From an uncultured Pirellula sp. (lineage in GTDB: Bacteria; Planctomycetota; Planctomycetia; Pirellulales; Pirellulaceae), in NCBI GenBank assembly GCA_903837255.1, contig CAILTZ010000189.1, positions 1-13,238 of the forward strand: a stretch of 13,238 nt of DNA. Direction: 5' to 3'. Both the position numbers and the translations under genes were made by a program. The notes beneath the pieces are model-generated. The model did not search any database. It saw nothing but the letters and a program-made list of their open reading frames with translations, and was not told the origin of the DNA. This document shows, one piece after another, positions 1-13,238 of the stretch. Numbering within the stretch: position 1 is the first letter of the stretch; the number at the start of each line of letters is the position of its first letter.

Positions 1-44
1 AACCCAATACGTAGACTTTAAGTTGGTTTGGTTGGGAAATCACT

Positions 45-1358
45 ATGAAGCATCCTTGGTGTTGGGTACTGATTTTTTGCGCTTCGGGCCAGATAGCCCT
101 TGCGCAACAAGTCCCACCGGTCCGCGAGATCAAATCGCTCGATAGCCCTTTGCCAGCAAATTTCCAGGCAGCACAGAGCGTGCAAGAGTCGAATGCCACA
201 CGACTTTTGACGATTCAAGAGGCAGTCGATTTCGCTCTAGCGAACCACCCTGCGATGCAAGAGGCGTTGGCTGCCGTTGAGGAAGCGCGAGGATTGGCCT
301 ACCAGGCGGGATTGTATCCAAACCCTAGGCTCGACAGCGGAAATCCTCAAACGATCGGGGGGGCTAACAGTGTGTATTCGCTGGGTGTGACTCAAGAGAT
401 CGTTCGGGGCGGCAAGCGTCAATTGGATGTTGCTGCAGCTCAGAGGTCCATCGCGCGACTGCAGTACGAGTACCAGCAAAAGAAGTTTTTCTTGGTGACT
501 GAAGTACGTCGAGGATTTGTTGCGGCTTTAGCGGCACAAGAGCGTGTCGAGATCCTCGAGTCGCTTGCTAAGATCGCTAGGGAGCTAGAAAAGACAACCG
601 ATAGTTTGGTCAAGGCGGGTCAGGCGTCCGAAGCGGATTTGCTTTTGCTGCGGCTCGAGCGGCGTCGAGCTGAAACAGCTTTGACAGCGGCCAACGCTGA
701 ATTATCAGGAAAGCTTTCCCGGCTCGCGGCCCAGATTGGATCGATCGGCTATCCGATCGAAAAAGTGGCCGGAGAGCTCGACATGCCGATTCCCAATTAC
801 GAGGGACTTGTTTTCGACGATGACTTGGTCAATCGAAACAACTTGATCAACGCTGGGCGGACGGAGGTCCAGCGCAGCCGATTGCTCTTGCAACGGGCCA
901 TCGCAGAACCGATCCCCAACGTGACTCTTCAAGCAGGAGCGCAGCAGACAGCCAGTGCACCTCATGAGCAGGGGCTCGTCGGTGTGTATTTCGATCTGCC
1001 GATATGGAATCGAAATCAGGGAAATATTCGGGCTGCGGAGTCGTCGGTGCGACGGAACGTTGCGCAGGTCGCCATGATACAGACCGAGATTGCTAAACAG
1101 ATTGCTGAAACAAGATCGCGTTACCTTTCGGCGGCCCGCCAGGTCCAGTCCTACGAGGAAGGAGTGTTGCCTGACGCCAGAGAAACACTCAGGCTCGTGC
1201 GGTTGGGTTACGACAAGGGTCAGTTCGATATCGTCCGATTGGTTCAGGCGCAGCGGACAGTCTTCGAGGCGAACTTGGAATACCTTCGAGTGCTCGAATT
1301 ACGCCTCGACGCGGCTGCTGAAATATCGGGCTTGCTTCAATCCGACGAGTTTCCTTGA
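45..1358 (+). CDS. TolC/CzcC-family outer-membrane efflux channel
   Basis: This 437-residue protein is the likely outer-membrane exit duct of the tripartite pump encoded just downstream. A signal peptide is visible at residues 1-20, with a hydrophobic core and a likely cut after ALA before QQ. Two TolC-type repeats follow. The first opens with TIQEAVDFALANHP (about 56-69) and the second ends in a long helix at about 330-430. The motif FDLPIWNRNQG at 316-326 is typical of the CzcC/CusC-like branch of the outer-membrane efflux protein family. The length is normal for the family. The ATG is chosen because it gives a proper signal peptide and an in-frame stop lies at 12-14; the ribosome-binding site is weak. 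The metal-pump assignment comes from the adjoining CzcA-like permease. The substrate is not determined by this subunit. Confidence 0.93.
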   Translation: MKHPWCWVLIFCASGQIALAQQVPPVREIKSLDSPLPANFQAAQSVQESNATRLLTIQEAVDFALANHPAMQEALAAVEEARGLAYQAGLYPNPRLDSGNPQTIGGANSVYSLGVTQEIVRGGKRQLDVAAAQRSIARLQYEYQQKKFFLVTEVRRGFVAALAAQERVEILESLAKIARELEKTTDSLVKAGQASEADLLLLRLERRRAETALTAANAELSGKLSRLAAQIGSIGYPIEKVAGELDMPIPNYEGLVFDDDLVNRNNLINAGRTEVQRSRLLLQRAIAEPIPNVTLQAGAQQTASAPHEQGLVGVYFDLPIWNRNQGNIRAAESSVRRNVAQVAMIQTEIAKQIAETRSRYLSAARQVQSYEEGVLPDARETLRLVRLGYDKGQFDIVRLVQAQRTVFEANLEYLRVLELRLDAAAEISGLLQSDEFP

Positions 1359-1532: not shown

Positions 1533-4500
1533 ATGATCCATGCTATTGTCGTTTGGGCGTTGCGAAATCGCTTGATCGTCTTGCTCGCTATTTTGGCGTT
1601 AATTGGGGTCGGGACTCATGCGACACTCAATCTCAACGTTGAGGCCTATCCAGATCCGACGCCCCCGCTGATCGACGTGATTAGTCAAAATCCCGGTGCG
1701 AGCCCAGAGGAAATTGAACGGCTTGTAACGATCCCAATCGAGACGGCGCTCAATGGTATTCCGGGTTTGGAGTATGTTCGCAGTACTTCGATTGCCGGCC
1801 TGAGCGACATCAAGTGCCAGTTCGCTTACGGAACCAACTACGCCGCCTCTCGGCAAGAGGTCTTAAACCGTTTGGCGTTTGTCGATCTGCCCGATGGAGT
1901 GCGCCCCGAACTGTCCCCTTGGAGTCCTACGGGCGAAATTGTCCGCTATGTGTTGGAAGGCCCGGGTTACACGACCAATCAACTCAAGGCCGTTCAGGAT
2001 TGGGTGCTGAATCGGATTTTCAAGCAGGTTCCGGGGGTGATCGATGTAGTTGGCTTTGGTGGTACGATCAAACAGTACCAAGTGCTCGTCGACACCCGGT
2101 TGCTACACAAGTACGAACTGACGATGGCGCAGGTGGAATCTGCGATTGCCAAGTCCAACGCCAATGTCGGTGGCAACGTGATGATGCTTGGGGCTCAAGC
2201 CCACAATGTCCGGGTGATCGGTCTGCTCGGTGGTGGCAAAGATCCTTTGGCTCTAGAGAATGTTGACCAAGCATTAGAGATAGAGCAGCAGAAGATCGAA
2301 GACATACGCAATGTCGTGTTGACCACGAGCGACGACGGCACGCCGGTACGGGTAGCGCAGGTCGCCCAGGTTATCCTCGGGCATCAACCCCGTTTAGGAG
2401 TGGTCGGTCGAGGTGACCAGAACGACGTGGTCGAGGGGATCGTCATGATGCGTAAGGGGGAGAAGTCGCTAGCAACGGCCAAGGCTATTGCTGCGAAAAT
2501 TCGCCAGATCGATCAAGAGGGTTTGCTCCCCAAGGGGATGAAAATTGAGTATTTCAACCAGCGTACCGATTTGGTAAATGTCACAACGCACAATGTCATC
2601 CACAATCTGCTTGTGGGCGTGGGTTTGGTGATCTTGGTATTGCTTGTTTTCCTCGGAGATCTGCGAAGCGCGTTGATCGTCGCGTCGGTAATACCGCTGG
2701 CTTTGTTGTTCGCCATCAGCGTATTGTACTATCTTGGGATGTCCGCCAACTTGCTCTCGCTAGGGGCCGTGGATTTTGGGATCATCGTCGACAGTTCTGT
2801 GATTATCGTTGAAACGGTGTTTCGGGAGCTATCGAGCGATCGGGGTGGAGCTAATCGCGACGTACGTCAGCGAATTGCCGATGCGACCCGTTCGGTCGAG
2901 CGACCCATGCTGTACTCGACGGTGATCATCGTATCAGCATTTTTGCCCTTGTTCACCTTGACCGGACCTGCCGGTGCACTGTTTGGTCCCATGGCCATGA
3001 CGTATGCGTTTTCCATACTGGGTGCCTTGCTCATCTCCGTTACCTTTGCACCGGTCCTTTGTTCGTTTTTCTTCCAAGGCACCTTGAGTGAACATGACAC
3101 GATCATCGATCGAATCATGAAGTATCTTTACGGGCGAACACTCTCGCTAGCGCTTCGATTGCGCACGTTGACCGTGGCTATCTGTGCGATCATGATCTTG
3201 GTGACGTTGCTGCTCATGACTCGCATCGGAGCTGAGTTCATGCCGCAACTAGAAGAAGGCAATCTTTGGATCCGAGCATTTCTTCCACGAACGGTATCCC
3301 TAGAGGAAGCTCAGCGTCTAGCGCCACGATTGCGGCAGGTCATTTCGAGTATTCCTGAGGTGCGGGGCGTAATGTCCCACGTTGGGCGTCCAGACGACGG
3401 AACAGACGTGACGAGCTTTTTCAACCTGGAATTCAACGTTCCACTTAAACCCATGGAAACCTGGCGGCCGGGGGTTACTCGCCAATCGATCGAAGGTGAG
3501 CTAGCCGAGAAATTCAAAAACTATCCGGGGATCGAATTCGGCTTTTCCCAATTGATACGGGATAATATCGATGAAGCCCTATCGGGAATCAAGGGTTCGA
3601 ATTCCGTCAAGCTCTTTGGGACTGATCTTGCTACCCTGGAAGAAACCGGAACAAGGATTGAGGAAGCGCTTCGATCGGTACGCGGGGTCGAGGATGTCGG
3701 GGCATTTAATATCATCGGACAGCCGAATCTGGAGATCACCGTCGATCGAGCTGCATGCGCTCGGCACGGCATCAATGTTCAGGAGGTCGAAGATGTCGTC
3801 GGAGTTGCGATTGGAGGCAAAGCCTTTTCGCAGATGGTCGAAGGAGAAAAGCTCTACGACATCGTGCTGCGACTCTCCACGGACTTGCGCAACGATCCGG
3901 AGAACATGGCTAGGATACCGATCGATATTCCAGAAAGACCCGGAGCGGCTGCCCACCAGATCCCCTTGGCTCTTTTGGCCAAGATCGATCCGCACAAACC
4001 CGGAGCCCAATACATCTATCGAGAAAACAACCGTAGATATCTGCCGGTCAAATTCAGCGTCCGAGGCCGAGATCTAGCTTCGGCGATCGCCGAAGCCAAA
4101 GAGCGCGTCGATGACCCGAACGCAGGAGCTAGGCTGCCTCAGGGCTATCGCTTAGAGTGGTCTGGTGAATTTGCGCAAATGCAATCTGCAAACGCCGTCT
4201 TGCGAGTCACCGTACCGATTTCGATCACCCTGATCATGGTGGTTTTGTATCTGATGTTCGGGAGTTTCAAGGACGCGCTGCTGGTCATGGCAGGAGTCAT
4301 CATCGCCATGATCGGCGGAATTTGGGCACTGGTGATCGTCGGCATCCCCTTTAGCATTTCTGCTGCTGTCGGATTCATCTCGATCTTTGGTGTTGTCGTC
4401 CAAAACGGTGTGTTGCTGATCAATTACTTTAAGCAGAATCAATCGGATCATAAATCGTTGGATGTTGTCATCCACGAGGGTTCTATCACGCTCTTGCGCC

Positions 4501-4721
4501 CGGTCGTGATGATCTCTTTGACCGCAATCCTAGGACTATTTCCTGCCGCAATCGCTACCTCAGTTGGATCCCAAGCCCAAAAACCGCTTGCGATCGTCGT
4601 CGTAGGGGGAATGATGGCAGCCATGATTTTCCCCCAGTACCTCCTCCCGGCTTTGTATCTCTTTTTCCCAAAAAACAATTTGGCTCCTGAAGACAGAAAT
4701 CCCTCCATCCACGGTCATTAG
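1533..4721 (+). CDS. HME-RND efflux permease, CzcA-like (complete)
   Basis: This is a 1062-residue inner-membrane proton/metal antiporter subunit of the heavy-metal-efflux RND family. The N terminus (TM1, about 14-33) is followed by the family sequence around NPGASPEEIERLVTIPIE (53-70). The first membrane block spans about 355-510 and the second about 888-1045; two large periplasmic domains lie between TM1-TM2 and TM7-TM8. TM4 carries D414-F-G, D420 and E427, with the same 6- and 7-residue spacing as the CzcA proton-relay residues D402/D408/E415. The segment GAEFMPQLEEGNLW (566-579) is a family hallmark. By-eye alignment shows no Met at the position of CusA M573, which argues against a Cu(I)/Ag(I) pump and for divalent cations such as Zn, Co, Ni or Cd. 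The ATG is fixed by an in-frame stop at 1503-1505; no clear Shine-Dalgarno is present. The gene lies 174 nt after the channel gene and 29 nt before its adaptor. Family confidence is high and substrate confidence is low. Confidence 0.95.
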   Translation: MIHAIVVWALRNRLIVLLAILALIGVGTHATLNLNVEAYPDPTPPLIDVISQNPGASPEEIERLVTIPIETALNGIPGLEYVRSTSIAGLSDIKCQFAYGTNYAASRQEVLNRLAFVDLPDGVRPELSPWSPTGEIVRYVLEGPGYTTNQLKAVQDWVLNRIFKQVPGVIDVVGFGGTIKQYQVLVDTRLLHKYELTMAQVESAIAKSNANVGGNVMMLGAQAHNVRVIGLLGGGKDPLALENVDQALEIEQQKIEDIRNVVLTTSDDGTPVRVAQVAQVILGHQPRLGVVGRGDQNDVVEGIVMMRKGEKSLATAKAIAAKIRQIDQEGLLPKGMKIEYFNQRTDLVNVTTHNVIHNLLVGVGLVILVLLVFLGDLRSALIVASVIPLALLFAISVLYYLGMSANLLSLGAVDFGIIVDSSVIIVETVFRELSSDRGGANRDVRQRIADATRSVERPMLYSTVIIVSAFLPLFTLTGPAGALFGPMAMTYAFSILGALLISVTFAPVLCSFFFQGTLSEHDTIIDRIMKYLYGRTLSLALRLRTLTVAICAIMILVTLLLMTRIGAEFMPQLEEGNLWIRAFLPRTVSLEEAQRLAPRLRQVISSIPEVRGVMSHVGRPDDGTDVTSFFNLEFNVPLKPMETWRPGVTRQSIEGELAEKFKNYPGIEFGFSQLIRDNIDEALSGIKGSNSVKLFGTDLATLEETGTRIEEALRSVRGVEDVGAFNIIGQPNLEITVDRAACARHGINVQEVEDVVGVAIGGKAFSQMVEGEKLYDIVLRLSTDLRNDPENMARIPIDIPERPGAAAHQIPLALLAKIDPHKPGAQYIYRENNRRYLPVKFSVRGRDLASAIAEAKERVDDPNAGARLPQGYRLEWSGEFAQMQSANAVLRVTVPISITLIMVVLYLMFGSFKDALLVMAGVIIAMIGGIWALVIVGIPFSISAAVGFISIFGVVVQNGVLLINYFKQNQSDHKSLDVVIHEGSITLLRPVVMISLTAILGLFPAAIATSVGSQAQKPLAIVVVGGMMAAMIFPQYLLPALYLFFPKNNLAPEDRNPSIHGH

Positions 4722-4750
4722 CCACCTGCAAAACGTCCATCGAGTCTCTT

Positions 4751-6112
4751 ATGCAAGCAACCCAAACGTCAGTCGACGATCAAAACCCAAACGAAGCGCA
4801 AGAAATCCTGTCCAACCTCTCGTCGGATTCGCAAAGTCAAACCCTACCCAGCGATTCGGTCAAGAGAGCTAGAAAGCCAGGAAATGGGCTGCTGTGGCTC
4901 GGCATGCTTTCGGCAATCCTCGCCGGAGCTTACTACTTTCGCGATGAACTATTCGGTACCAAGCACACGCAATCAACCGCCAGTATCGAAGTGGTAAAAA
5001 AAGACCCAACGCCTTGGAATGGAATCATCGAATTGTCCGCTCAGGCCCAGGAGAGTATCGGACTGAGCCTCACAGATGTCGTCGCCCAAACCGAACCGAT
5101 ACTCCTACCTATCCTGGGTACCAGTAGCCACGACGATACCAAGCTCTCGAAGATTGCTCCTCTTTTTAAGGGCAGAGTCGAGAAGGTCTATGTTTCCGTC
5201 GGTGACCAAGTCGCACAGGGCCAACCGTTGGTCGATCTGTATAGCGCAGAGCTAGCCCAAGCGAAAACGAACTACGAAATTGAACGAAGCCAATGGGAAT
5301 ATGTCCATCGCCTGTTAGAGGTTCGGACCCAATTGCGAGCCTCGAATGCCATCAGTGAGCAACTGCTGCTCGACACCCAGAACGATGAACTGAAACAACG
5401 CCACGAGTACGATATCGCTCTGGAAAAGCTGATTCTTTACGGACTCTCCGACGCGGAGATCACCGCGGTTGAACAAGAAAAGGGAGCTCAAAGAGCTCGA
5501 CTCACAGTCCGTTCTCCTGCCAATGGCATCGTCATCAACCGCAATGCAGTGACTGGAAATCTCTACAACGAAAGCGATATCATGATGGTCGTTGCCCCCA
5601 ATGATCATCTTTGGGTCTGGGGGAATGTTTTTGAATACGATCTGGCGAGAGTTCATCTAGGACAAAAGTGGGATATCAAATTCGGTTTCCGAAAAGATCG
5701 TATATCAGGGACCATCGAATATGTCTCACCGAATGTCGATCCGCAATCTCATGCCGTCAAAATACGAACCACGATACCCAACCCTGACGGCTCGCTAAAA
5801 GCCGATATGCTTGTCGATGGCTACCTTCAAATTCAACCCGAACCAAACTATGTTTCCATCCCTCGGCTTGCGATGATCGTCGTCGATGGCGGTTGCTTCG
5901 CATTCACCAGACTTCCGAATGAGCCCGGAAAATTCCAAAGACACCTCGTGCACGTCGTCCACGAACGCGAAGATCATGTCATCCTCAAAGATGGTGTGGC
6001 GATCGGGGAAAAGGTCGTGGTTATAGGCGGTCTGATCCTGCAACAACTTTATGAGGAGAACGAGGTCCTAGCTCATGGTCACCTAGCCCGAACACCCTCG
6101 GATCGAGACTAG
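4751..6112 (+). CDS. RND periplasmic adaptor (membrane fusion protein), CzcB/CusB-like
   Basis: This 453-residue adaptor would join the upstream permease to the TolC-like channel across the periplasm. About 45 polar residues precede one hydrophobic segment (about 46-63), which should anchor it in the inner membrane. The lipoyl-like halves lie at about 137-165 (FKGRVEKVYVSVGDQVAQGQPL) and 249-283 (LTVRSPANGIVINRN). They are separated by an alpha-helical hairpin (about 166-245). A beta-barrel domain (about 285-360) and a membrane-proximal domain (about 365-430) follow. There is no lipobox and no Met- or His-rich metal-binding extension, unlike some CusB/CzcB adaptors. The start is 29 nt after the permease stop, so the two are probably one transcript. 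The gene order channel-permease-adaptor differs from the usual channel-adaptor-permease order of czcCBA. Confidence 0.92.
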   Translation: MQATQTSVDDQNPNEAQEILSNLSSDSQSQTLPSDSVKRARKPGNGLLWLGMLSAILAGAYYFRDELFGTKHTQSTASIEVVKKDPTPWNGIIELSAQAQESIGLSLTDVVAQTEPILLPILGTSSHDDTKLSKIAPLFKGRVEKVYVSVGDQVAQGQPLVDLYSAELAQAKTNYEIERSQWEYVHRLLEVRTQLRASNAISEQLLLDTQNDELKQRHEYDIALEKLILYGLSDAEITAVEQEKGAQRARLTVRSPANGIVINRNAVTGNLYNESDIMMVVAPNDHLWVWGNVFEYDLARVHLGQKWDIKFGFRKDRISGTIEYVSPNVDPQSHAVKIRTTIPNPDGSLKADMLVDGYLQIQPEPNYVSIPRLAMIVVDGGCFAFTRLPNEPGKFQRHLVHVVHEREDHVILKDGVAIGEKVVVIGGLILQQLYEENEVLAHGHLARTPSDRD

Positions 6113-6241: not shown

Positions 6242-8026
6242 ATGAACGGTCGCTCTCTTGGCTCTGCACGACGGAGATCGCAACTATTTGCAGTCTCAAG
6301 GTTGTTGATGAGTGCAGTTTTTTGCACAAGTCTCACAGCGCTGCATGCTCAGGATTATTTTGAAGGGGTAAAGCCTACGCCAACCAGCGAGAATCCTACG
6401 GCGAGTATCCAGGGCTTGCTCGACGGTCGAAAAGAGTTTCAAACGCACTGCCTGAAGTGTCACGATGCTCAAAAATCGATGGCGGAAAACTATGACTTTC
6501 AAGGCTGGCTAGATACGATCGATCGAATGGTTCGCAAGAACGAAGCTACGGTTCCACAAGCCTCACGTCAGCCGATCGCCACCTATCTGAGTTTGATGGC
6601 CGGTACATCCATGTCGGGGGCCTCAAGCACGTCAAGCATCTCAAGCGACGAGAAAGCAAATGCTACTGAAAAGAATCAGGTCCAAGACCGACAGCTGATT
6701 GAATCCGGTAGGGGTGCGTTCCAGACCAGTTGTATCTCCTGCCACGATGCGGAAAAATCGCTCAGTAAAACCAAGTCCAAATCGGATTGGCTTGTAACGA
6801 TCAACCGGATGGCAACCAAACAAGGAGCAAGCATACCGGCGGGATCTTTCGACTCGATCGCCACTTATTTGGCATCGCTGTCTGGATCCTCCAGTTCGAC
6901 AAACGATAAGACCACTGGGAATCTAGCAAGCGACGCAGGTGGTGGCTCCCTTTCGGTCAGCGGTACCTTTTCCCCGACCTGGAGAGGTGGAAACGACAAT
7001 ATCCAAAATGGGGGTTTCTTTCCCGACACTTGGCTCACCGCGAACTGGACCGGCAAAGCCCTTTCAGGCCAAGTCACGGCTTGCGTCAGTTGCCACACCA
7101 CTGCAGAGGGAATGGGCGATCGCGTTGAATTAGTAGAAGCAAAGCTCAGACTGGATATCACCTCGGTTTTTGATCAATGCGCACGGGATGACTTGAAGGT
7201 GGCCGTCGAGGGTGGTCGATTTATTGTCCCATTCGGAGCATTTGCGTCCCAGAGCAATCCTGCTGTCTACCGTACCGTCACCAGGCCGCTGATCTACAAC
7301 ATGGGGCAACGGGTGCATGATGGTGATATCGGAGACCCGGTCTTGCCCATGCCTTATTCCGATGAAGGAAGCAACATCAGTATCGATCGGGATCTAAATG
7401 GTACCTGGAGGCTCGGCATGATCGGATATGTAGTCAACGGATTGCAGTCGGACCGAAACGGGATCAACTTCGACCAAAGCCGCGACTATGTTGCCAACAA
7501 CAACAACCCCTCGTTTGGTTCCCGCGTAACACTAGGTACTCCTCGATTGAATTTTGGTAGTTCGATCATCACAGGTCAGTCGAGTCCAAGCGGGGGCATC
7601 GATGGGGTTTCCGACAAGCTGTATTACCGTATCTACGGATACGATGCGACTTACAAAATCCCCTCGTTGTTGCGTATGCAATTTGAGTATGCACACAGAG
7701 AAAGCGACCGAGCGGCCCCTGAGCCGGATGCATTCCGGGTCCGAGATCGGGTCGCTGGCTATTACCTCGAAGGAGAGTACTATTCTCAAATGTTCTCCAG
7801 ACTTTCGTACATCACGCGATACGACTGCCAGGATCGGCGCTCGGACTATGCTCCCGATGAAAGTTCGATCGGACTCGGATCTCTGACGGTCTCTAGATTC
7901 ACCTATGGTTTGAATTTGAATCTAAAGCGAGCCGGACTCGTAATGATCAACCACGAACGGTGGAATCTCCCAGGCGGACTTGAACGGATGGACGTCCTAG
8001 GTGTGCGTTGGGTCTATTCTTTCTGA
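6242..8026 (+). CDS. triheme cytochrome c fused to a predicted outer-membrane beta-barrel
   Basis: This is a secreted multidomain protein of about 594 residues. The ATG is preferred over an in-frame TTG at 6218; both give the same signal peptide, with Arg-rich n-region, hydrophobic core and a cut near ALHA/Q (about residue 36). Two tandem cytochrome c domains follow (62-121 and 156-215), each with CxxCH (70-74, 164-168) and a Met 26 residues after the first Cys (M96, M190) as likely axial ligand. They resemble the heme-binding domain of quinohemoprotein amine dehydrogenases. Ser/Thr-rich linkers separate the parts. From about 235 onward the protein has alternating aromatic/polar strands, [11 protein letters not shown] (324-334) as in O/P-type porins, and a C-terminal WVYSF ending in Phe, as expected for BAM-inserted barrels. 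A third CxxCH (281-285) lies early in this region. The arrangement resembles Cyc2-type porin-cytochromes. An electron-transfer role at the outer membrane is inferred; a periplasmic role is possible. Confidence 0.85.
6425..6886 (+). repeat. tandem duplicated monoheme cytochrome domain (two copies)
   Basis: Two 60-residue units at 6425-6604 and 6707-6886 align without gaps, with 28 of 60 residues identical by hand count. Both share the pattern GR..FQT.C..CHDA.KS, then W-L, T-I-x-R-M, K, A, P, S, I-A-T-Y-L and a final G. The heme-binding Cys pair, His, Trp and presumed axial Met are all kept in both copies. They are joined by a Ser/Thr/Lys-rich linker of 34 residues. This indicates an internal domain duplication with both copies still under selection to bind heme. 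Confidence 0.85.
7082..7096 (+). other. third c-type heme attachment site (CVSCH)
   Basis: A CxxCH motif (residues 281-285 of the cytochrome-barrel protein) lies outside the two duplicated cytochrome domains, between segments that read as the first strands of the barrel. The surrounding sequence, with GMGD seven residues on, does not match the other two domains, and no Met is found at their spacing of 26 residues. The axial ligand is therefore unclear. Covalent heme attachment here is inferred from the motif only. Confidence 0.7.
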
Positions 8027-11000
8027 ATCTCTTGAGCGATGATTTTTCCAACAAAGGAGAAACTGCAGATCACCGGCAGCAGGATCAAATTCACCAGGGT
8101 CGCTGTGATCAGGCCAAAAAGGATCACAAGCCCCATTGGGTACTCGATCTCCTGCCCAGGAATTTCTCCCGTAAGGATCAGTGGCACGAGTGCCAACCCT
8201 GTCGTCGCGGCGGTCATCGTGATCGGCGAGAGCCGCTCCTGGGCTCCTTGCAACACCAATTCTCGCTGGTCGCGAACCCCTTCCTGGATCGCAAGATGCC
8301 GATAATGGCTCACGAGCATGATCGCATTGCGAGCAGCAATACCCAGTACTGTGACGAACCCAACCAGTGACCCCAGCGATAGAATCCCACCCGATGCATG
8401 AACCCCCAACACGCCCCCGAGCAATGCCAGCGGCAGGGTGCTGAGGATCAACGCCACAAGCTTCCACGACTGAAAATCGATGTACAGGATCACTGCAATC
8501 GCGAGCACCGACGCGATCGATAAAAGCAACAGTCGATTGCGGGATGCTTTTGCCTCTGCGTATTCCCCAAGAAACTCTGGATGATAACCCGCCTGGAATT
8601 CGACGTTGCTGCGAACCGCCCGTTCGATATCGGTGGCCACCGACGCGAGATCTCGTCGATCGACATTGCATGTGATGTCGATTCGCCTTGATGCCGCCTC
8701 TCGCTTGATTTCGTTCGGTGCAGGGACGATCGCAAGGGTCGCAACATTCCCGAGCGGAACTTGTCCTCCTCCCGGAATATCGATCATCAGCTCACTGAGG
8801 GTTCTCAGGTCGGTGTGCAAACTCTTTTCGCCTCGCACCACCACGCCGAAGATATTCTGATCTTTGTAAATCTCACCGACCTGCGTTCCATTGACCAGTG
8901 TCGTGACGCTCCGCATCAAGGCACCGGGAGTTAGATTGAACTGAGAAGCCGCCTCGGGTCGCATCTGCACCGAGATCTGCGGTACGAGGACTTGAGGCTC
9001 GACCTTGAGCGTCGTGACCCCCTCGATGGGCTTGATCTCCGCTGCGATCGCGTTGGCTGTCATGCGCAGCTGTTCCATGTCCGGTCCAAACACACGAACG
9101 ACGATCGAGGCGCTGGTTCCCGTGAGGACTTCTTTGATCCGCTCGGTAAGGTAGGTCAGCAGATCGCGATACAGACCAGGATAACCATCGACGATCGTTT
9201 GAACCTGGGCCACCGTTTTGTCGTAGTCTTTCGAATCGTCGATGCTGATCCAAAGCTCGGTAAAGTTCGGGCCGACGACCTCATCGGCAACCGTCGCGCG
9301 ACCGATGTGGGATCCAAAGTTCAACACACCCTCGACAGCCATCAACTCCTGGCTTGCCCGCTTGGTGATGCGATTCATCGCATCGATTCCTATCCCCGGT
9401 TTTTCTACCCAATGCATCAGAAAATCGGTCTCTCGGAATTTGGGCATGAGCTGCTCGCCCAGTCGGGTGATGGTCGCCCCGAGCAGCACAATCGCAAGCG
9501 ACGAGAGCCCGATCGTCACCCATCGCCAGCGGATCGAACCTTCTAGCACCCAGCGATAGAGTTGCTTGAGGAATTGGACCAAGGGTCCATCGGCATGCCG
9601 ATTCCGTGCCGATACCGGGAGCAGGTACAACGACATCGCGGGGGTGACCGTCAGCGCGACGGCTAGCGATGCTAGGATTGCCAAGATGTAGGCTGCTGCC
9701 AGCGGTTTGAAGAACGCGCCTGCCAATCCAGTCAAAAAGAATACCGGCAAGAATGCCAGGACCACGATGATCGTCGCATAGACCACCGCGCTTCTGACCT
9801 CCATCGATGCATCAAATACCACCGCAAATGCCGAGCGAGGATTGCCCAACTGCTCGTTGATCCTCAATCGCCTAATGATGTTCTCGACATCGATGATCGC
9901 GTCGTCGACGACCTCCCCGAGCGCAATGACCAGCCCTGCCAAAACCATCGTATTGATCGTTCCACCTCGATAGTAAAGAACGAGCATGGCTGCGATGAGC
10001 GAAAGCGGGATCGCCGTGGCGCTGATCAAGGCGCAGCGCCAATCGTAAAGAAACAGGATCAATACGACGATCACCAAGACGCAACCCAAAAGCATCGAAT
10101 GGCTGAGGTTCTTCAGAGATCGCTCGATGAACGTCGCCGGCCGAAAAATCGTCGTGTCATACTGCACCTCGTGCATGGCAGGCGCAAGATCCGACATCGC
10201 CTTTTCTACTTTGCGGGTTACGTCCAAGGTGTTGGCCCAAGGTTGTTTCTCGACGATCAGCAAAAGCCCTGGTCGATTGTTGATAATCGCATCCCCAATC
10301 GGCGGTGCATGATCGATTGTCACCGTGGCGACGTCTCGGATGCGAAGCGGTGTTCCATCGGCCTGCATTCCAATTGGCTGGGGTTGGACCGGCTGCGTTG
10401 ATGTCCTGCGGATCGGAATGTCCCCTAGCTGCTCAGGGGTATAAACAGCCGGGATGTGCCTGAGGGCCAGTCGCTGATTGGGGGTGTCGACAAAACCTCC
10501 CGATCCAACAGCCGTCGCCTCACGGACGGTTTGCAAGATCGTATCGAGAGTCAGCCCGTGGCGGCTAAGCCTGACCGGATCGACAACCACCTGCAACTGC
10601 GGATCCTTTTCGCCCCAGACCGCGACGTTGGCCACTCCAGCGATCCCCATCAATCGAGGACGTATCGTCCACTTGGTCAACGTCGTCATGTCCATCTGCG
10701 ACTTAGTGTCTGACCACAGCCCGATCTTCATGCATCGGCTCAGCGACGACAAAGGGGGCAAAATCACCGGCGGTCTTGCAACCAATGGCAACGTCGACTG
10801 GGCCAGCGCCAATCGCTCTTGGACCAATTGCCGAGCAACCAACAAATCGGTTCCTGGCTCGAAGATCATCCGAACACTCGATAACCCTAAGACCGATTTG
10901 GAACGGACGGTTTGAACGAACGGAATACCGTTGACCGCATTCTCGATCGGCACGGTGATCAGACTCTCGACATCCTCGGTGGATATCCCCGGCGCTTCGG

Positions 11001-11148
11001 TTTGGATCTCCACGAGCGGTGGCGCAAATTCAGGAAACACATCCAGCGGAATCGAATCGCTATTGCGAATACCGACGACCACCAGGATGACGGCCAGGAT
11101 CAGGACGAGGAGTCGGAGCTCGAGCGATGTTTTGATCAACCAACTCAT
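8014..11148 (-). CDS. RND efflux permease, CusA/CzcA-like, second system
   Basis: This is a 1044-residue inner-membrane RND permease of the heavy-metal-efflux type. TM1 is at about 12-27. It has the family sequence [25 protein letters not shown] (52-76, quoted in parts: [11 protein letters not shown], then [10 protein letters not shown]). The first membrane block is about 350-510 and the second about 872-1035. The TM4 region carries [13 protein letters not shown] (411-423). Aligned to CzcA, D415 and E422 match D408 and E415, but the D402 position is Ala409, and D416 and D420 are extra. TDFLMHW (574-580) puts a Met-His pair close to the CusA M573 region, which could mean a different metal preference; this is speculative. 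The ATG overlaps the adaptor stop as ATGA, indicating translational coupling. The 3' end runs 13 bp into the oppositely directed cytochrome gene. Full length, no frameshift seen. Substrate unknown. Confidence 0.93.
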
Positions 11149-12497
11149 TTGCCGGCTCCGAATTCGGTGCCAAACAACTCGGCCGAACCATCCGTGACAA
11201 TCTCAGAGCCCAGTGCTGGACCCGCCGACAGGATGGCTTGGTCACCCTCGACCCACTCCAACATAATTCGGCTTCGGCGAAATTTCACAAAACCCTCTTT
11301 GCTCGCCGATTCCTGAACATAGACCCAGGTCCCTCCATAAATGTCATACAGGACAGCAGCCATCGGAACGACCAAGGCCTCGGTCAAGCTCGTCATCGGC
11401 ATGTCGACTCCGACACGCTGGCCGGGCCGTAATCCCAAACTGCGGTTATCCACCTCGTAGTACAAATCGGCTGAGGAACTGATCGCATCGGCCGTTGGTG
11501 GTGCCGCAATCGGCTTGGCCGATTCCTGAGTTTGACTCAAGGGGTTTCCATCCAGAGACACCAAACGCACAGGTATGTCCCGTTTGAGCTTCGGTAGCAA
11601 ATCGACATACACCGGCAAACGGATCCAGATAGTGCTCAAGTCCACGACTTCGAAAAGAGGTGCACCAATCGATACGTTCTGCCCCGCCGAGACTTGGACG
11701 TTGCGAACGACACCCGTGACTGGTGCTCGAAGTGTCAACGGCAAAGGTGGATCGACACGTCCACCGTATTTATCGGCTTTCTCGATCGTTTGCAAAAGCG
11801 AACTGAGTTCAGCCTGCCGCTGCTTGGACGCCTCCAAGGTTGATTTGGAAACCGAAAGCAAAGCCTCTGAATCATCCAGAGCCCGTTGACTACCAGCGCG
11901 ATCCGCTAGCAGTTTGGCGGCTCGATCACGTGCGATCTTCAGGCCCTGGACCTCGGACTCACCGCGAGCCACATCGCCTTGCGCGGTGACCAAAGCGACC
12001 ATCAGGTTCGCCTTGGCACCGGTGATCTGAACTTGCTCGGCCGGCGTAGGTACATCGCGTTCTGGCGAAAGAAGAGGTTTGAGAATCATTAGGGATTGCG
12101 CTACGGTTACCTGGCTGCCAGGCAGTGGGAAGTATTCCCCCGATGGTTCGATTAAGCCCGGGACCGGAGCCGTGGCGATGATCGACTTGCCCGAAGGTAC
12201 AATCGCCTCGCCAGCGAGCGTTCGATGCCGGGCGACCTGGCGCTTTTCGATCGGGACCAATCGAATCCCAAGTCTCCCGACGGCCTCGTCGGTCAGCTTG
12301 AGTGTTGCCAGCTGGGTCTCTTGCGGCACCATCTCGACCTTGGCCGGCGAACTTTTCGATGAAGACGAAGACGAGGACGAAGACGAGGGTTTGTTGCAAC
12401 CGATCATCGCAACGGCGATGAGCCATGCCAAAAGGAACCAAATAAAGACTGGCCTAGTGAGCCAGCCAAACCAAGCTAGGATGGGTGAATTTTTCAT
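11145..12497 (-). CDS. RND periplasmic adaptor, probable lipoprotein, second system
   Basis: This 450-residue membrane fusion protein partners the permease downstream on the same strand. The N terminus has a hydrophobic stretch (about 17-33) ending in AMIGC; C34 is a probable lipidation site, though the lipobox is not canonical (Met at -3). A run of ten Ser (38-47) follows as a flexible tether. The lipoyl-like halves lie at about 105-140 ([13 protein letters not shown]) and 254-285 ([20 protein letters not shown]). They flank a helical hairpin at about 155-240. Beta-barrel and membrane-proximal domains fill 288-440. An AGGA sequence (tcct at 12502-12505 on the + strand) lies 4 nt before the ATG as a weak Shine-Dalgarno. 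The stop overlaps the permease start by 4 nt. It differs clearly from the first adaptor in anchor and sequence, so it is not a recent copy. Confidence 0.92.
12357..12386 (-). repeat. ten-serine codon tract in the second adaptor
   Basis: Thirty nucleotides encode ten consecutive Ser (residues 38-47) using mixed TCN codons (TCG, TCT, TCC, TCA), so the DNA is a degenerate triplet repeat of TC-rich codons. It sits three residues after the likely lipidated Cys34 and probably spaces the adaptor body from the membrane. Such tracts can change length by replication slippage in multiples of three without breaking the frame. Confidence 0.8.
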
Positions 12498-12575
12498 AGA
12501 GTCCTATTGTAATAGCAGACACCGAAACGTCCGGGGTCTTGCGTGACTTCTATGAAAATAACTGGCGTTTGCGGT

Positions 12576-13238
12576 CTACTCGTTGGCCGAGCCGACCAAA
12601 TCCGGTTCGGTCGCTTGGAGAATCTCGGCGGTCACCAGGGGCGGGGCCAACAAGCTCCGAGAGATACTCCGCTCCAACTCGGCAATCGCGCGATTGCAGG
12701 CTGCCCTCTGAGAGAGAATCTGTCCCTTGGCGTTGAGGTACTGCGTGGTCGTCTGAAGCACAATTAGATAATCTGAACCGCCGAGTTGAAAGCCTTTCTC
12801 TGCGATCTGTCGAGCTTCGTCCAAGGCAGGCTCGACGTCTTGCTTGAGGATCTCAAGGTTTTGCTGGGCTTGCAACCACTGCCGATACGCAGTCTTTACC
12901 TCGGCGATGATTTGGTCAGAGATTGCATCTCTGTTATGCAAAGCGGCCTCGAGCTCCGCCGTTGCGCGGAGGATGCCCCCTTGGTTGCGGTTGAAGATGG
13001 GCAAATCAAAGCGCAGGCCGGCACCGTTTGGGTTCCTTCCATGGACTTCTCGAACATCATAAACTCCATCGAGCCTGAGCCACAACCATCGCGATAATCG
13101 CGATCGCTCGCTGGCGGCTGCCACTGCCCACTTGGCTGCGTGCAGATCGGGCCTGCAAGCCAGCGCTTCTTGGACCAATTCCTCTTCGCTTTGGATTGGC
13201 ATGATCGGCTCGTGCAATTGACCCTCGGAAAGAGACTC
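12576..13238 (-). CDS. TolC/CzcC-family outer-membrane channel, second system (5' part outside window)
   Basis: This is the last 220 residues of an outer-membrane efflux protein; the frame stays open to the window edge, so the N terminus and signal peptide are missing. An internal TTG at 13217 is unlikely to be the true start because family sequence would be lost. The second TolC repeat is recognisable: EEELVQEALACRPDL, then FDLPIFNRNQG at 12978-13010, then a long amphipathic helix to RSISRSLL. This matches the motif in the first channel (FDLPIWNRNQG), but the flanks differ greatly. It lies 78 nt upstream of the adaptor on the same strand, giving the order channel-adaptor-permease, as in czcCBA. 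It would be the exit duct for the second pump. The ending SANE is a normal family tail. Confidence 0.88.
   Translation of the reverse strand, partial: ESLSEGQLHEPIMPIQSEEELVQEALACRPDLHAAKWAVAAASERSRLSRWLWLRLDGVYDVREVHGRNPNGAGLRFDLPIFNRNQGGILRATAELEAALHNRDAISDQIIAEVKTAYRQWLQAQQNLEILKQDVEPALDEARQIAEKGFQLGGSDYLIVLQTTTQYLNAKGQILSQRAACNRAIAELERSISRSLLAPPLVTAEILQATEPDLVGSANE

Follow-up and report, generated by a model that had tools for sequence, protein, structure and literature searches.

A putative triheme cytochrome-porin of an uncultured planctomycete, with a predicted OprP-type barrel that bears its own heme site

MtrB-type outer-membrane barrels are heme-free, larger than the barrel discussed here and threaded by the decaheme MtrA; the cytochrome of the Mtr and Pcc systems is a separate, multiheme protein. 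The Pcc clusters described in Anaeromyxobacter combine a porin with a 12- or 14-heme periplasmic cytochrome (PMC4245776). Cyc2, as set out in PMC8406198, is a 16-strand porin with one heme, described as oxidising dissolved Fe2+; its N-terminal cytochrome, a proposed periplasmic plug, carries an AXPXFAR[Q/K][T/Y] motif upstream of the CXXCH. The ext clusters of Geobacter encode ExtI, a phosphate-porin-like protein, together with a rhodanese and with multiheme cytochromes that are proteins in their own right (PMC5877670). Here we analyse a 13,238-nucleotide stretch of DNA (the window) from an uncultured Pirellula sp. (contig CAILTZ010000189.1), and within it a gene for a 594-residue cytochrome-porin. 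We confirm that a single chain combines three putative c-type heme sites with a predicted closed barrel. A preliminary description, made from the DNA letters, had seen in it a possible Cyc2-like porin-cytochrome of new architecture, and that interpretation as a whole is partly supported.

The protein resembles Cyc2 in that a c-type heme and a 16-strand outer-membrane barrel share one chain, with no separate multiheme partner needed. It differs from Cyc2 in that its family has a barrel heme site, placed between strands 3 and 4, together with an invariant methionine on loop L3, and adds one, two or four N-terminal cytochrome units where Cyc2 has a single N-terminal heme. With MtrCAB, MtoAB and Pcc it shares the pairing of a barrel with a periplasmic c-type cytochrome, and some relatives with separate genes lie beside OmcA/MtrC-family decaheme genes, whereas here a barrel of OprP size has a heme site itself and pairs with units of one or two hemes. 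The one-heme barrel loci also differ in arrangement from the Anaeromyxobacter Pcc clusters as described in PMC4245776. The predicted fold, strand number and long L3 are those of OprO/OprP, which are anion channels without heme. ExtI likewise is phosphate-porin-like and clustered with c-type cytochromes, but no barrel heme figures in the part of PMC5877670 that describes it. The N-terminal domains match the profiles of small cytochromes c of the Dehyd-heme_bind/SorB type (SorB below its cut-off), and differ from them in being tandem and fused to a barrel. In an open-access library we recognised no paper on this family or on any porin whose strands themselves hold a heme; PMC10732223 reports a Cyc2-encoding gene in one Bythopirellula metagenome-assembled genome (MAG).

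We read the protein, with a probability of roughly 0.68, as a single-chain porin-cytochrome that conducts electrons across the outer membrane and whose barrel carries its own heme. The 16-strand OprP-type barrel would sit in the outer membrane and bear a covalent heme at the CxxCH that closes strand 3 on the outer side. C281 would be directed into the lumen, H285 would be the proximal ligand and M354 the probable distal one. The two N-terminal His/Met cytochrome domains would lie in the periplasm at the mouth of the barrel and relay electrons between the barrel heme and soluble periplasmic carriers. A role across the outer membrane, already proposed in the preliminary description, is supported by the gene neighbours of split relatives; the electron transfer itself we infer.

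The CxxCH motifs lie at residues 70, 164 and 281. In 20,000 shuffles of the protein their mean number was 0.0019 and three were never reached. The N-terminal part matches the Pfam families Dehyd-heme_bind, Cytochrome_CBB3 and Cytochrom_C above cut-off, the first (PF09098) with 37.8 bits against a cut-off of 25.2 and its best stretch at residues 66-145. The C-terminal part matches no Pfam family above cut-off, and neither Porin_O_P (PF07396) nor the MtrB/PioB barrel (PF11854) is among the matches of the protein at E values up to 1; of the profile matches that had been proposed as a check, the Dehyd-heme_bind one was found and the Porin_O_P one was not. PF07396 scores just under its cut-off in the relative at L053, and over it in the heme-less relative at L077. 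A PDB sequence search gave a best match of E 0.056 with the protein and none with a profile of the stand-alone porins. The two N-terminal domains, first seen as tandem CxxCH domains with likely axial methionines (for which the present candidates are M96 and M190), are an internal duplication (hhalign probability 100, E 1.3e-39, 42% identity), and the N-terminus, judged by eye, indeed looks like a signal peptide. C164 and H168 are kept in 119 of 121 fused-type proteins and M190 in all 121. The genome that encodes these CxxCH motifs also matches the ResB maturation protein. It holds a single copy of the cytochrome-porin gene and also matches a heme-copper oxidase and two Porin_O_P genes. A chimeric assembly is ruled out by the same layout in P0002 and 35 further listed three-heme proteins. 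Plasmid carriage was rejected, the plasmid collection having given no match, and the phage family search gave no informative result.

Structure prediction closes residues 236-594 into 16 strands, in line with the 14 to 18 expected earlier for an outer-membrane barrel ending in Phe. In the predicted model strand 3 spans residues 274-283 and the third CxxCH residues 281-285, hence at the strand's end. Because of the usual porin topology, this site is predicted to face away from the periplasm, and by the same topology the two extra heme domains would be on the periplasmic side, as had been suggested. The polar/apolar alternation along strand 3, read by eye, leads us to expect a lumen-facing C281. 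L3, which joins strands 5 and 6, comes near the third CxxCH in the fold and bears both M354 and M370. We tallied 36 positions, chosen from the invariant or nearly invariant residues plus the heme residues, in 241 proteins: the query with 120 listed of its 218 fused-type matches, and 120 listed of 295 stand-alone barrel matches. C281, C284, H285, M354, G355 and R326 are kept in 241/241, and this makes M354 the strongest candidate for distal ligation of the barrel heme. M370 was rejected for this role, being kept in 119 of 121 fused-type proteins and in only 36 of 120 stand-alone barrels. The predicted model is heme-free; heme attachment, ligation by M354, the height of the heme in the barrel and all distances are what we infer.

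The split relatives give this site a wider setting. All 120 listed proteins among the 295 found by a distant-barrel profile search carry exactly one CxxCH, which aligns with the barrel site. The barrel is matched in 35 of 145 genomes of the Anaeromyxobacter order. Counts below concern 25 loci (L079-L103); we dropped the five weakest of 30 loci (L104-L108), along with further copies that G698 and G804 carry on separate contigs. A c-type cytochrome lies directly downstream of the barrel in 23 of them, with one heme in 16 (within a 308-residue frame at L095) and two in 7; at L094 there is no cytochrome inside 1.5 kb, and L098 stops at a contig edge. Profiles of 19 of the 23 partners match domain 2 of the query with E values of 9e-11 (13 one-heme partners) and 2.2e-11 (6 two-heme partners), against a probability of 0.17% for an unrelated control. 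Two planctomycete loci (L055 and L058) show the same order, barrel then cytochrome. The query thus looks like the fused version of a two-gene system. Also in Planctomycetota, a one-heme protein is encoded upstream at L052, L055, L057 and L060, the copy at L055 matching PSCyt1 barely above cut-off; statements on neighbours leave out L017, L054 and L056. In Anaeromyxobacter PSR-1 the one-heme barrel gene is one of four overlapping genes, the others encoding an EB_dh lipoprotein, a CX4CH lipoprotein and a 111-residue one-heme cytochrome. At L026 the Anaeromyxobacter cluster begins with a CX3CH-bearing lipoprotein of the EB_dh type (ethylbenzene dehydrogenase heme domain; 8168-9334), and a small lipoprotein-like protein with the unusual heme motif CX4CH (9334-9774) is encoded upstream of the barrel, with similar ones in many stand-alone loci.

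The neighbours of these barrels suggest a link to extracellular electron transfer. TIGR03507, the OmcA/MtrC decaheme family, is matched in 72 of the 145 genomes of the order at E 0.001 (above cut-off in 45): all 25 barrel-locus genomes match it, as do 47 of the other 120. At least 8 of the 25 loci (G691-G698) have an above-cut-off decaheme gene within 4 kb of a stand-alone barrel, a lower bound because several loci end at contig edges (that of G708 at 3.5 kb). Decaheme genes are scarce in such genomes, with 1 to 10 TIGR03507 matches each. They lie on the strand opposite to the barrel in five of the eight (G691, G692, G693, G694 and G696) and on its strand in G695, G697 and G698, the last having them beside both of its barrel genes. 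The five neighbouring decaheme proteins that were scanned singly all pass the TIGR03507 cut-off. MtrB/PioB was found in one genome of the 145 (G814, E 1e-104), itself without a barrel match, and many of the decahemes are thus without a known barrel partner. OmcA/MtrC-family decahemes were seen beside one-heme barrels at L109 (3293-5797 on the minus and 14215-17082 on the plus strand), L110 (3428-6346), L111 (10085-13045) and L114 (4748-7282).

The fused form was matched by 218 proteins at E ≤ 0.001 (7992 candidates scored), and those with names are planctomycete. Among the query and the 120 listed relatives, 80 proteins have two CxxCH motifs, 37 (the query included) have three, two have five and two have one, so that the N-terminal cytochrome units number one, two or four. 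The five-heme forms P0088 and P0102, with four units ahead of the barrel, are outside alignment A1 (119 of the 121 sequences) and inside the conservation tally. The single-motif proteins P0024 and P0120 start within domain 2 and seem to be gene calls that were cut short. In a quick barrel tree, which sampled 15 of the 120 stand-alone barrels, the three-heme state requires at least 11 changes across well supported branches; this suggests that the units have been gained and lost repeatedly, although truncated gene calls may inflate the number. The architecture is not the Cyc2 plan, and it is not unique to this protein: members of the family have one, two or four units, and split forms occur in other bacteria. 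Across the phylum 53 of 392 genomes match, many by the cytochrome domains alone, and 13 of the 53 do so strongly over the barrel. Where loci carry organism names (25 cases), these are, beside planctomycetes, also Anaeromyxobacter and a Pontiellaceae MAG, among others.

A gene for a copper protein of plastocyanin/azurin type, a possible electron partner, begins 48 bp past a three-heme cytochrome-porin at L019 (11680-12516). At L053 a two-heme fused cytochrome-porin is followed on its own strand by a bc-type cytochrome b (1-925, minus strand). At L009 a DOMON-domain protein is encoded upstream of a three-heme form, and a downstream protein resembles one by eye (460-1452 and 3915-5903, both on the minus strand). 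At L004 a BBP7-type planctomycete outer-membrane barrel gene (8106-9581) is found downstream of the cytochrome-porin. In a relative at L025 (9998-11167) the barrel is split across two reading frames, broken or misassembled.

We lean, by a little, towards a broader proposal, that these proteins represent a third general solution for the passage of electrons through the outer membrane, in which an OprP-type porin holds a covalent His/Met heme in its lumen, between strand 3 and L3, as the middle hop, in separate-gene and fused forms. The separate-gene form would consist of the porin and a one- or two-heme cytochrome, often beside an OmcA/MtrC surface cytochrome in the Anaeromyxobacter relatives, where MtrB was not found. 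The form of the Planctomycetota would be a single chain, onto which periplasmic hemes are fused, gained or lost like beads.

Several observations weigh against a conduit. Since G325, R326, P330, G332, P349, G355, P371, G376 and N420 are likewise invariant in both groups, M354 may be kept for the fold, as a structural residue. A heme in the outer half of the barrel may sit too far from the periplasmic domains for a single hop. Barrel relatives without a CxxCH occur (L059 and L077). The gene is patchy: matches came from 17 of the 296 genomes in its host's order, in two cases over short stretches only, and from none of the 6 other genomes of the genus. The metal pumps that adjoin it are not electron-transfer genes. 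All eight decaheme-linked loci fall in the Anaeromyxobacter-like part, with none among the seven two-heme-partner loci, and as related genomes are not independent we attach no probability to the decaheme link. Finally, OmcA/MtrC is above cut-off in none of the 11 planctomycete genomes tested (of 17 with a barrel-family match, and including the query's own, 83% complete), with one weak match. The fused form thus probably works without a decaheme partner, and because none was found in these genomes a mineral seems a less likely donor or acceptor than something small and soluble, such as another protein or a dissolved metal ion.

A reading that overlaps with the conduit, and is in effect a narrower form of it, makes the protein a Cyc2-type oxidase in function. 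A reduced ion, dissolved Fe(II) or some other, would enter the barrel and be oxidised at the lumenal heme, and its electrons would pass inward through the cytochrome domains to the respiratory chain. We hold this tentatively, as a serious possibility that falls short of an even chance. In its favour, potentials tend to be rather high where a heme has His/Met ligation, the genome matches a heme-copper oxidase, and no decaheme partner was found in the 11 planctomycete genomes. Cyc2 itself is a 16-strand heme porin with this described activity (PMC8406198). Kinship with Cyc2, as first suggested, did not hold up: PXFAR[Q/K][T/Y] or AXPXFAR was found in none of the 241 fused-type and stand-alone proteins, and the third heme site is inside the barrel rather than in an N-terminal plug, which rules out membership. 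Iron-oxidation genes were not found among the window neighbours, and the OmcA/MtrC-family genes near Anaeromyxobacter-like relatives point to reduction or two-way use there. The family is not Cyc2 but may work like one.

The window is otherwise made up of metal-efflux genes (Table 1), given here as context with no membership implied; among its seven genes scanned there was no multiheme (8-12 heme) periplasmic cytochrome. The reading frame of the second pump operon lies tail to tail with that of the cytochrome-porin, and the two overlap by 13 bp.

Table 1. Coordinates of the cytochrome-porin gene, its parts and its neighbours in the window
Feature	Position	Strand	Basis or remark
Gene, triheme cytochrome-porin	6242..8026	+	594 aa; open reading frame, CxxCH motifs, structure prediction
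Signal-peptide-like N-terminus, residues 1-36	6242..6349	+	judged by eye; predicted helix 8-30
Cytochrome domain 1, residues 56-119	6407..6598	+	Pfam Dehyd-heme_bind, predicted helices, duplication
CxxCH of domain 1 (C70)	6449-6463	+	
M96, candidate axial Met of domain 1	6527-6529	+	
Cytochrome domain 2, residues 137-213	6650..6880	+	Pfam Cytochrome_CBB3 stretch 153-198, conservation
CxxCH of domain 2 (C164)	6731-6745	+	
M190, candidate axial Met of domain 2	6809-6811	+	
Linker, residues 214-235	6881..6946	+	largely low confidence in predicted model
16-strand outer-membrane barrel, residues 236-594, C-terminal Phe	6947..8023	+	predicted; OprO/OprP fold
Third CxxCH (C281-H285), end of barrel strand 3/start of loop L2	7082..7096	+	
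Long loop L3, residues 329-372	7226..7357	+	predicted structure
M354 on L3, candidate distal ligand	7301-7303	+	
M370 on L3	7349-7351	+	
TolC-type outer-membrane efflux protein	45..1358	+	PF02321; context
CusA/CzcA heavy-metal resistance-nodulation-division (RND) pump	1533..4721	+	TIGR00914, 848.6 bits, cut-off 701.45; context
CusB-type adaptor, ends 129 bp ahead of cytochrome-porin gene	4751..6112	+	context
Second RND operon: pump, adaptor and a TolC-type protein truncated at the window edge	8014-13238	-	

These neighbours suggest another role, that of redox partner to the adjoining Cus-type efflux, oxidising or reducing a toxic metal such as Cu(I) at the outer membrane and so aiding the pump. 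We think it improbable. The pump genes immediately precede the cytochrome-porin gene on its own strand and the second operon follows it, and a near relative of the window's CusA (76% identical) is encoded at L003, but divergently and about 2.6 kb from the cytochrome-porin relative; the RND gene at L008 has 34% identity. RND genes occur in at least 2 of 25 related loci, several of them short, a count with no chance rate attached, and the association with efflux genes is weak.

Slightly less probable still is an uptake porin whose heme would act as a gate, or as a staple that holds the structure, and would not be a hop for electrons. The likeness of the fold to the OprP-type anion channels, the heme-less relatives and the residues of L3 and the barrel that are as invariant as M354 would suit this role, but the heme-binding residues are kept in every listed relative, most of the examined loci have a cytochrome fused to the barrel or encoded next to it, and 8 of 25 stand-alone barrels have surface-type decaheme genes beside them. 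Equally unlikely is a barrel that merely anchors periplasmic cytochromes to the outer membrane while electrons remain in the periplasm, which agrees with the varying number of N-terminal units and the changes on the quick tree and leaves unexplained both the conserved barrel heme site and the stand-alone barrels beside decaheme genes.

In conclusion, a predicted OprP-type barrel that has a conserved heme site within it, and its relay fused on or encoded next door, is more interesting than a variant of Cyc2 would have been. If the conduit reading is true, the gene would be a candidate marker for outer-membrane electron transfer in some uncultured planctomycetes, and its split form a candidate route in Anaeromyxobacter-like metal reducers that have OmcA/MtrC-family cytochromes and in which MtrB was not found. 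It would also provide an electron conduit that is small, consists of one chain and is simpler than MtrCAB, and make the crossing of a barrel by way of one heme a directly testable question.
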